A stretch of 55,576 nt of DNA from Accumulibacter sp. (GTDB lineage: Bacteria; Pseudomonadota; Gammaproteobacteria; Burkholderiales; Rhodocyclaceae). How positions within the stretch are numbered: position 1 is the first letter of the stretch; each line of letters opens with the position of its first letter. The position numbers and the translations under genes are program-made. This document shows positions 52,886 to 55,372 of the stretch, in pieces. The DNA is taken from contig NZ_JAPUVR010000116.1 in NCBI RefSeq assembly GCF_029255125.1, forward strand, positions 1 through 55,576, in the 5' to 3' direction. The notes beneath the pieces were generated by a model. The model was not told the DNA's origin. It searched no databases and saw only the letters and a list, made by a program, of their open reading frames with translations.

Positions 52886-54454
52886 ATGCGCTACGACTAC
52901 AACCTCGGCAGGCATTTCGAAACGATCGCCGCTCAGCATGGCGAACGACCCGCGCTGCGCCTGGCCGCCGATCATCAGGTGAGCTACAGCGAACTTGCAC
53001 GCACCGTCGACCGCATGGCGCACTGGCTGCTGCAACGCGGTTTGCGCGCGCGCGATGTACTGGCGCTGTTCAACGACAAGCGCATCGAAGGCTACGCCGC
53101 GATGCTCGCCGCACTCAAGATCGGCGCGGCCTACGTCAATCTCGATGAGCAGAACCCGGCGGCGCGCATCAGCAAGATCCTGGCCACCTGCCAGCCGCGC
53201 CTGCTGGTCAGCGACCACCCGCTGCCAGCGGAAGTCGAGGCGTGCTGCCGGGCGAACGGCGCACCGCCAACACGCCTGCCGACGCCTGCCGAACTCGCCG
53301 CCCTGCCCGCGCAACGGCCACCGACGGTCGACCGCGTCACCGGCAGCGACCCGGCCTACCTGATGTTCACCTCAGGTTCCACCGGTATGCCCAAAGGCGT
53401 CGCCATCGCGCACGCCAGCGTCCTCAACTTCATCGCCTGGGCACGCAGCGAATTCGACCTCACCCCGCAAGACGTGCTGAGTGGCGTCAATCCGGTCTAC
53501 TTCGACAACTCGGTGTTCGATTTCTACGCGTCGCTCTTTTCCGGCGCGGTGCTCGCTCCGCTGACGCGCGCGACCGTCGCCGCACCAACCGAACTCGTCC
53601 GCCGGATCGGCGAACTGGGCTGTACCTTGTGGTTCTCGGTGCCCTCGCTGCTCATCTATCTGACCACGTTGCGCCAGCTTCGGCCGACGACTTGGCCGGC
53701 GATGCGCTGCCTGGTCTTTGGCGGCGAGGGCTACCCCAAACCGGAGCTCAAGAAGCTGTACGACCTCTTCCATCCGCGCTGCCGGCTGGTCAACGTTTAC
53801 GGCCCGACCGAAGGCACGTGCATCTGCTCGGCCTGCACGCTGAGCGACACCGACTTCGCCGACCTCAGCGGCCTGCCGCCGCTCGGCCGGCTCGCTGGCA
53901 ACTTCGCCTACCTCATCCAGCACGCTGACGGCAGCCTCGCGCCCCCCGGCGAAGCTGGCGAACTGTGCCTGCTCGGCCCGCAACTTGCCCTCGGCTATTA
54001 CCACGACACCGAAAGAACGGCAGCGAGTTTCGTTGCACCACCCGCACCGGCGTCACCCGGCGAGCGCATGTACCGCACCGGCGACCTGGTGTGCGAGGAC
54101 ACCAACGGCGTTCTCTGGTTCGTCGGCCGGGCCGACAACCAGATCAAGCACCTCGGCTACCGCATCGAACTGGAAGAGATCGAAGCCGCCCTGCAAGCGC
54201 TGCCGCAGGTACGCCAGGCGGTCGTCGTTTACCAGCGACGGCGCGAGCAACACGGCGAAATCGTCGCCTTCGTCAGCGCTGACCAGCCGCTCGACGGCGA
54301 AGCAATCCGTCAGCGCCTGCGCCAGACGCTGCCGTCGTACATGATTCCCGGCCAGATCGAACTGCTCGACGAACTGCCGAAGAACGCCAACGGCAAGCTC
54401 GACCGCCGACGCCTGGCAGAAGCAGCACTCACCCGCACGCCTCCGTCATCCTGA
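52886..54454 (+). CDS. Free-standing amino-acid adenylation enzyme (NRPS A-domain/DltA-like)
   Basis: The 522-residue ANL enzyme has the A-domain core motifs: LKIGAAYVNLD (A2), FTSGSTGMPKGVAIAH (A3), YFDNSVFDFY (A4), NVYGPTEGTC (A5), GELCLLGPQLALGY (A6), YRTGDLV (A7), GRADNQIKHLGYRIELEEIE (A8, part) and PKNANGKLDRR (A10 Lys). The Asp in YFDNSVFD suggests an alpha-amino-acid-type substrate, as in DltA. No carrier-protein or condensation domain is present in it or beside it. It likely activates an amino or other acid for attachment to a glycan amine; the acceptor is unknown. Confidence 0.9.
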   Translation: MRYDYNLGRHFETIAAQHGERPALRLAADHQVSYSELARTVDRMAHWLLQRGLRARDVLALFNDKRIEGYAAMLAALKIGAAYVNLDEQNPAARISKILATCQPRLLVSDHPLPAEVEACCRANGAPPTRLPTPAELAALPAQRPPTVDRVTGSDPAYLMFTSGSTGMPKGVAIAHASVLNFIAWARSEFDLTPQDVLSGVNPVYFDNSVFDFYASLFSGAVLAPLTRATVAAPTELVRRIGELGCTLWFSVPSLLIYLTTLRQLRPTTWPAMRCLVFGGEGYPKPELKKLYDLFHPRCRLVNVYGPTEGTCICSACTLSDTDFADLSGLPPLGRLAGNFAYLIQHADGSLAPPGEAGELCLLGPQLALGYYHDTERTAASFVAPPAPASPGERMYRTGDLVCEDTNGVLWFVGRADNQIKHLGYRIELEEIEAALQALPQVRQAVVVYQRRREQHGEIVAFVSADQPLDGEAIRQRLRQTLPSYMIPGQIELLDELPKNANGKLDRRRLAEAALTRTPPSS

Positions 54455-54645
54455 AGCTACGACCGCCGCCGCACAAGCCCCGGCGCGCAACCCAGCAGCG
54501 CGCTGCGGCGCAGCTCCACTCGCCAGAGGCCGCGCGAACGCGTTCGACGCTGGAACCAACCGCGCACCTCGAACGTGTTCGCGCAGTTCCGCCCACCGGG
54601 AAGTACAAAGTAAGGCGAAACGGTCCTAAGCCACAGCCAAGCCTG
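54455..54645. other. Spacer between adenylation gene and the split tRNA
   Basis: No gene is supported. In particular I looked for a small carrier protein after the adenylation gene and saw none. Confidence 0.4.
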
Positions 54646-54651
54646 TAAAAT
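54646..54651 (+). promoter_or_regulatory. -10 element for the intron-bearing tRNA
   Basis: TAAAAT ends 9 nt before the tRNA 5' end, the expected place for a stable-RNA promoter -10. A matching -35 box is not clear. Confidence 0.45.
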
Positions 54652-54660
54652 GATGCGCTC

Positions 54661-54986
54661 GGGCCTGTAGCTCAGTTGGTCAGAGCAGAGGACTCAAGGA
54701 GGGCAGAACGTCCCCAGGTCGTCCTGCCTGCATGGGTTGCCCGCCGCCAGCTCACCGCTGGCGACGGGTAGAACTGGTCAAAGTCGGTGAACGCTAAAAC
54801 CACACCACAAGTGACATGCGAATACCGAGCCAAGCCCCCGCGAGCAGCGGAGGAAGGTGTAGAGACTAGACGGCCAGCCTGTAACGGGAAGGTATAGTCC
54901 AGACCACAAACTCGCACGAGGCGGCGAAAGCCGTAGTGGCAAGCATAATCCTCTGGTCCAGGGTTCAAGTCCCTGCGGGCCCACCA
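54661..54986 (+). tRNA. tRNA with CAU anticodon (probably tRNA-Ile2), split by a group I intron
   Basis: The 5' half (54661-54694) and 3' half (54944-54986) join to a 77-nt tRNA. Acceptor stem is GGGCCTG/CGGGCCC (one G-U pair), D stem GCTC/GAGC, anticodon stem GAGGA/TCCTC around loop CTCATAA, T arm CCAGG/CCTGG-type pairing with TTCAAGT, and CCA is encoded. The anticodon CAU could be Met or Ile2. The GGGCC acceptor start and general resemblance to the Azoarcus tRNA-Ile favour Ile2, which needs TilS to make lysidine at C34. The halves are separated by 249 nt between U33 and C34. Splicing must precede function; no intact copy is in the window. Confidence 0.93.
54695..54943 (+). ncRNA. Group I self-splicing intron (IC3/Azoarcus-like) in the tRNA anticodon loop
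   Basis: The 249-nt insert has a group I core that can be paired by eye: P3 CTGGTC (54774-54779) with GGCCAG (54872-54877); P4 TCGGT (54784-54788) with ACCGA (54824-54828); P7 GACTA (54864-54868) with TAGTC (54895-54899). The blocks CCGAGCCAAGC and GGTGTAGAGACTAGACGG are those I remember from the Azoarcus tRNA-Ile intron. P2 is a strong hairpin around GCCAGC/GCTGGC near 54750. The 5' exon ends in U (54694), which can wobble with G at 54717 in an internal guide GGTC (54717-54720); the intron ends in G (54943), as group I introns require. There is no endonuclease ORF, so it is a minimal, non-mobile-looking form. Confidence 0.93.
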
Positions 54987-54992
54987 GACAAG

Positions 54993-55025
54993 AAGACCAA
55001 CCCCTCATCGGGTTGGTCTTTTTTT
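54993..55025 (+). terminator. Rho-independent terminator of the split tRNA
   Basis: A perfect 11-bp stem, AAGACCAACCC (54993-55003) with GGGTTGGTCTT (55010-55020), has a 6-nt loop and is followed by a T-run to 55025. It starts 7 nt after the tRNA CCA. Confidence 0.93.
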
Positions 55026-55119
55026 GCGTACTGCCGCGGACTCCCGCGCGCTGGCGCGGGTTTGAGAGGTGGCCCCCGCTTGTTTGGACAGCAAAGGCAA
55101 TTCGCCAAGTGGATCTCTG

Positions 55120-55372
55120 CGAGTTCCGGTCGGCTGGCCGGAGATGCGCGTCAGCGAGCACGCCCAGCGCGGGCCCAGCAGGCCCTTCCCCGTGGCGCCA
55201 TCATTGGCCAGGAAGCGCTATAGCCCGCGATCGTCTCTGCCCACCCAGAACGCGCCGACGGGATGCTCATCGTCGGCTTGGCAGCCAGCCTGTCCAACAA
55301 CGCGATCGCTCGCTTGTCCGGCCTTCGTTCCCCCAGATCAACTTCCTTCAGGTCCTCCGCAGTCCACGCCAC
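55120..55372 (-). pseudogene. Remnant of a Tn5/IS4-like transposase, N-terminal domain, frameshifted
   Basis: On the minus strand the peptide WTAEDLKEVDLGERRPDKRA, then AAKPTMSIPSARSGWAETIAGY, matches the N-terminal DNA-binding domain of Tn5-type transposases. After the Tyr codon (55222-55220) the frame breaks; skipping two bases restores RFLANDGATGKGLLGPRWAC and about 10 further residues, after which the match fades. No catalytic domain follows, because the sequence runs into the tRNA terminator region. It is a dead fragment inserted just downstream of the split tRNA. Confidence 0.72.

Follow-up and report, generated by a model that had tools for sequence, protein, structure and literature searches.

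Can a tRNA-Ile2(CAU) gene that is split in its anticodon loop still supply the cell with a tRNA for AUA codons? The question is raised by a locus of Accumulibacter, a key organism of wastewater phosphorus removal. In the window (the whole stretch of DNA analysed, 55,576 nucleotides), the sequence reads as a tRNA-Ile2(CAU) gene at 54661–54986 with a group I intron of 249 nt at 54695–54943. We consider it highly probable that the gene is functional and is probably the only one of its kind in the cell, and that an intron whose core is of the IC3 type separates its U33 from its C34. The 249-base RNA very probably cuts itself out.

The interrupted gene and the fold of its intron

A sequence-only reading had assigned these coordinates and this insert length, and the sequence bears out both (Table 1). 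As that reading had stated, the two halves join to a full cloverleaf; the joined tRNA is 77 nt long and has the anticodon CAU and an encoded CCA, with exon 2 opening with CATAATCC and closing with CCA. By eye, most of 25 compared loci show inverted repeats at the place matching the probable terminator, in flanks that stop short of any T run. A pattern scan did not return the inverted repeat at 54994–55025, nor did it return a sigma-70-like promoter. Two antisense open reading frames, at 54778–55161 (−) and 54672–54968 (−), cross the tRNA. The antisense frame containing GPQGLEPWTRGL is presumably of the false-gene type often placed by annotation pipelines over the 3′ half of a tRNA.

Table 1. 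Features of the interrupted tRNA-Ile2(CAU) gene (window coordinates)
Feature	Position	Strand	Basis
tRNA-Ile2(CAU) 5′ exon, tRNA positions 1–33, last base U33	54661–54694	+	Sequence; exon end GAGGACT in 25/25 rows
Group I intron, 249 nt, assigned IC3-type core, omega-G 54943 as final base	54695–54943	+	RF00028 match, alignment, fold, pair counts
AUG, candidate P10 partner of the CAU opening exon 2	54732–54734	+	Pairs kept: C34 in 25/25, A35 in 21/25, U36 in 23/25 rows
Internal guide GGUU; P1 with exon GACU 54691–54694, U.G at splice site	54735–54738	+	Invariant in 25/25; guide and exon both differ where CAU tRNAs of other phyla are split
P2 hairpin	54740–54768	+	Double changes in 5/11 pairs; 90.9% of cells paired; present in MFE fold
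P3 5′ strand; 3′ strand 54872–54877	54774–54779	+	100% of cells paired
P4–P5: P4 54784–54789 with 54823–54828; P5 54793–54794 with 54818–54819	54784–54828	+	Pair count over alignment; no room for P5abc
P6/P6a	54830–54857	+	Double changes in 4/4 counted P6a pairs
P7 5′ strand, guanosine-binding helix; 3′ strand 54895–54899	54864–54868	+	Invariant and paired in 25/25; in MFE fold
P8	54878–54888	+	89% of cells paired
P9 and two side hairpins, one with GAAA tetraloop 54926–54929	54904–54939	+	Pair count; hairpin without GAAA 78% of cells paired
tRNA-Ile2 3′ exon, C34 to encoded CCA; anticodon CAU 54944–54946	54944–54986	+	Sequence and alignment
Probable terminator: 10-bp perfect inverted repeat and T run directly 3′ of gene	54994–55025	+	Sequence reading

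With the whole interrupted gene as query and a cut-off of E < 1e-50 within the genus, the gene was found in 25 of 28 genomes (its own included), 22 of which carry all 326 positions and three of which have it cut by contig ends (G009, G018 and G024). Full-length matches within the genus are 79–84% identical. We aligned 25 genes, comprising 22 from the genus and L189, L193 and L083, and counted 76 named pairs of the tRNA stems and the intron, drawn on the window sequence with knowledge of group I introns. Over the 25 sequences, 96.2% of cells are paired, a share that this way of drawing the structure biases upward (the double changes less so). Both sides change in 16 pairs, four in the T stem of the tRNA and 12 in the intron (five in P2, four in P6a, one in P4 and two in the P9 hairpins). 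The covariation score is 0.116, against 0.072 in shuffles, none of 500 of which reaches it, and 0.024–0.038 in slid controls; a weaker measure, the number of further pair types, gives 38 against 34.9, and 31 of 500 shuffles reach 38.

The group I pairings P3, P4 and P7 that had been claimed from the sequence alone are paired in all 25 rows, as is P6; P3, P6 and P7 add little support because they barely vary or are invariant. The weakest helices are the P9 hairpin at columns 298–307, P8 and P2, in that order. Compared with dinucleotide shuffles, the intron folds with z = −2.69 (1 of 200 shuffles is as good), and the single-sequence fold shows P2, P4, P5, P6a, P7, P8 and the GAAA hairpin. Together, the RF00028 match and the pair counts reveal a group I core from P3 to P8 with the guanosine site of P7. 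Introns of the IC3 subgroup are small, lack P5abc and have an Azoarcus-like core. The Accumulibacter intron is likewise small, with no P5abc and a short P5, and, in line with the IC3-like core blocks noticed earlier, it has an 18-base motif that is identical in many tRNA introns; we assign its core to the IC3 type, that is, Azoarcus-like.

Standard searches pass over this gene. As had been predicted for gene callers, ARAGORN misses the split tRNA, its sole call in the window being a tRNA-Leu elsewhere, and Rfam at curated gathering thresholds gives no match in the window. By E-value threshold, a search of 54400–55200 gives 12 matches in all, among which the sensible ones are RF00028 (Intron_gpI) at 54772–54878, spanning P3 to P3′, and weak tRNA-type matches to the exons (RF00005 with 16 bits; RF01684 and RF00023 over the 3′ exon); the others were set aside as chance-like. 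The Intron_gpI match foreseen by the sequence-only reading is therefore present by E-value (1.3e-4) but, at 26.5 bits, lies under the curated cut-off of 50. Searched over the whole genome of the same organism, RF00028 has no match at E ≤ 1.

The curated RF00028 score is reached by none of eight loci of this intron (the window and seven similar ones). Among 15 further loci it is reached by five: L084, L088 and L115, with the intron between tRNA positions 33 and 34 (33/34) in other phyla, and L003 and L021, with the intron between positions 36 and 37 (36/37). It is missed by L031, L042 and L109 (36/37), by L032 and L083 (33/34), and by five Leu- or Arg-intron-like loci; three of five Azoarcus-type Ile2 loci are thus also below it. 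The score sets a limit on detection and does not describe the RNA itself. The authors of a 2018 study judged it unlikely that the single Rfam alignment spans the range of structures among group I introns (PMC6125680). Because ARAGORN is silent and the Rfam threshold is not reached, genomes like this one would seem to be without Ile2.

Proposed splicing and the supply of AUA-reading tRNA

In the mechanism we propose, the precursor would be transcribed and the guide GGUU would pair with the last four exon bases, GACU, to form P1. An external guanosine bound in P7 would attack after U33, and the freed U33 would in turn attack after omega-G (54943), joining U33 to C34. TilS could then turn C34 of the joined anticodon loop into lysidine, yielding an AUA-reading tRNA.

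The Azoarcus group I intron, the closest studied relative, splices without protein. Since both the core and the GAAA loop of the Accumulibacter intron are also intact, we regard it as unlikely that this RNA depends on a protein helper (RNA chaperone or synthetase-type cofactor) and would fail to splice alone in vitro. Such a need would be in keeping with a P1 of just four pairs and a short P8, and proteins are needed by some group I introns, according to the available part of one paper (PMC3984707). Self-splicing stays the preferred reading.

A second alternative is that the split gene is dead and no longer splices, Ile2 being supplied from another locus or AUA being read by another decoding route. 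The own assembly (G000; 3.83 Mb, rated 99.96% complete) bears on this in two ways. It contains 41 RF00005 matches, 40 of which were given to ARAGORN, the 41st being the tRNA-Leu of the window. Among the 40, only L124 and L140 have CAT anticodons, and from general knowledge of such features we take their sequences to be those of elongator and initiator Met; L165–L167 have no ARAGORN call, and tRNA-Ile(UAU) was not called at any of these loci. Furthermore, the spliced tRNA as query finds in this genome only the two halves and less similar tRNAs (the best, Lys, at 83%) and no second copy. The search for another CAU Ile2 gene that the sequence-only reading had proposed therefore came out as it had supposed, with no such gene in the own assembly and the other CAT tRNAs Met-like. 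In favour of the dead gene, the assembly is in 150 contigs and some tRNA genes are absent; no Ile-GAU, Ala or Glu tRNA was called in it, although the cell cannot do without them. A second Ile2 gene could be hidden in the same way, and its absence is no proof. One of the uncalled loci, L166 (G000:C66:34016-34272), is a partial tRNA of 23.7 bits that resembles the 3′ part of tRNA-Thr(CGU) and is a possible integration scar.

The other genomes of the genus point both ways. No interrupted gene was found in G012, G017 and G019 (88, 90 and 83% complete), with one match at E 0.001 in G012, and a search of these three with the spliced tRNA gave eight matches that ARAGORN calls Phe, Lys, Met or Thr and no Ile2, split or whole; three of 28 genomes in which no Ile2 gene is found would suit another supply. 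Against this, the interrupted gene matches once in each of the single-contig genomes G010 and G016, where no additional Ile2-like piece turns up at E ≤ 0.001 (six candidates scored in each). Given also that exons and core are intact and the helices covary, a dead gene is very improbable, and the functional gene remains our reading.

Its identity as tRNA-Ile2 is suggested by the anticodon CAU within a cloverleaf, by the presence of a TilS gene, and by the eMet- and fMet-like character of the other two CAU tRNAs. Specifically, the TilS gene at L241 scores 162.7 bits against a cut-off of 93.6, in a search that also matched in 14 of 14 control genomes and exceeded the cut-off in 10. AUA makes up 26 of 741 Ile codons in 35 open reading frames of the window chosen by codon-position GC composition. 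The interrupted gene is probably the cell's only Ile2 gene. With no other in sight in the own assembly, splicing should be a precondition for reading AUA, and AUA decoding in Accumulibacter appears to rest on a ribozyme.

The predicted splice site and its guide

In the window sequence alone, the split point is ambiguous among three places because CA stands at both junctions. GGACT is followed by T in 18 of the 25 aligned sequences, by C and then G in six, and by CA in the window alone. Because of the T, a split between U33 and C34 is the only one that rebuilds the tRNA in the 18 rows. The same choice leaves G as the final intron base (omega-G) in 25 of 25 rows and sets exon GACU against guide GGUU with U.G at the 5′ site, again in 25 of 25, exon and guide bases that prove little alone because they are invariant across the alignment. 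Beyond the alignment, exon GGCU and guide GGCU were seen by eye, also at 33/34, in CAU tRNAs of Thermoflexales (Chloroflexota), Gracilibacteria and Desulforudis genomes and in an initiator-like (fMet-like) tRNA of Omnitrophica. On these sequence comparisons, we place the intron directly after U33 and before C34; the Azoarcus intron follows U36.

Splicing after U36 might be expected from the tRNA and intron class, which are shared with Azoarcus-type loci showing 36/37 (e.g. L003, L042 and L109). It is hardly credible here: the window has no CAT after GGACT, the rows with T at that place restore the tRNA at 33/34 only, and the U.G of P1 and omega-G agree with 33/34. Archaeal-type enzymatic splicing was rejected on account of the guide pairing and the group I core into which the insert folds.

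Distribution and comparison with known tRNA introns

Outside the genus, the search with the interrupted gene found the full-length form in two of 45 genomes of the family (G044 and G068). A second, partial match in another genome of the genus (G007:C107:668-709), 82% identical to the P6–P7 part of the intron (query 165–213), is possibly another tRNA intron. For the order, we surveyed 399 Burkholderiales genomes of 159 genera, evenly drawn from a larger group, with 3′ signatures of the two sites, allowing one mismatch in the 33/34 signature. The 33/34 signature occurs in at least 10 of 399 genomes (8 of 159 genera) and the 36/37 signature in at least 7 (6 of 159 genera), both counts being lower bounds because the signatures are narrow and were written from the loci at hand. 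No genome of the 399 has both signatures, and reversed-pattern controls were zero. Nine of the ten 33/34 loci also have the 5′ exon and the guide GGGTTG. Near a contig edge, L227 (G293:C60) has the 3′ part of a 33/34 intron without 5′ exon, guide or the usual P3 strand upstream, and is either a truncated intron or an assembly join.

Bacterial tRNA introns of this kind had been called rare in the sequence-only reading, but they are not very rare: the 18-base core motif alone occurs in at least 119 stretches of genome contigs, and the available part of a 2021 paper traces missing Ile2 calls in Acidovorax and Burkholderia to group I introns within that gene, with 36 genomes lacking fMet or Ile2 calls owing to group I introns (PMC8450103). 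As far as that part goes, these introns may be at either 33/34 or 36/37. Neither the Accumulibacter intron nor an Ile2 intron at 33/34 is mentioned in the literature we could consult, seen in part. Measured against that literature, the two would be a modest addition to the tRNA-Ile(CAU) group I introns already known from Azoarcus, Acidovorax and Burkholderia.

At some loci, an intronless partial tRNA-Ile2 5′ half, ending near CATAA, lies 192–233 bp upstream of the intron-bearing gene. A scan given 18 36/37 loci and 37 33/34 loci found the gene in 16 and 33 of them, and such halves at six of the 16 (L003, L042, L109, L198, L236 and L239) and two of the 33 (L083 and L233); three pairs among these look identical in sequence. 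Halves at L196/L229 and L232, also 33/34, were noticed separately, the scan not having found the gene there. None was found in the Accumulibacter loci scanned. The halves look like scars of something recombining at the Ile2 anticodon loop.

Among known systems, the tRNA-fMet(CAU) group I introns (of cyanobacteria and of Omnitrophica locus L117) also interrupt a CAU tRNA, and that of L117 is cut at 33/34 with its GGCU guide and exon, but they belong to an initiator tRNA and another phylum. IC3-type introns of bacterial tRNA-Leu(UAA) and tRNA-Arg(CCU) have the same core motif, in another tRNA and at another site. The IC3 intron of Azoarcus sp. BH72 interrupts the same gene, tRNA-Ile(CAU). Azoarcus-type loci, not the BH72 sequence itself, served for the comparison; they resemble the Accumulibacter intron in the core motif GGTGTAGAGACTAGACGG, in a P9 that has a GAAA loop, and in the U.G pair of the 5′ splice site. 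The likeness to Azoarcus drawn earlier thus stands for the tRNA and the core type and fails for the insertion site, which in Azoarcus follows CAU (36/37), three bases away. Specifically, Azoarcus-type loci have GGACTCAT on the 5′ side and AACCNG/AATCC on the 3′ side, that is, a junction after U36, and the available part of one paper gives CAU as the triplet that this intron uses in vivo in Azoarcus (PMC6274277). The Accumulibacter intron further differs in a longer 5′ part with an extra hairpin before the guide, and in a P9 with two side hairpins.

The site difference may mark a separate lineage. In a tree of intron cores built from 60 of 130 extracted rows (left out were 55 whose tRNA is unnamed by simple labels, three 'other' and 12 of 26 Leu), the 13 36/37 Ile2 introns fall into a single clade (100/99), with 14 proteobacterial 33/34 introns in another group (94/99, not starred). 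An independent origin is suggested, not established, because AU tests reject none of three alternatives: the two groups together (p-AU 0.272), a single clade of all 22 CAU introns (p 0.306), and all 35 together (p 0.238). We see about even chances that a distinct U33/C34 lineage, with guides following the exon, occupies CAU tRNAs (Ile2, Met-like and fMet) of several phyla and entered the Ile2 of Burkholderiales independently of the 36/37 lineage, the loop having been invaded twice, three bases apart, at sites about equally common. The 33/34 and 36/37 introns, found in one and the same tRNA, offer a natural pair for intron entry and site choice in the anticodon loop, and for how guide sequences follow their exon.
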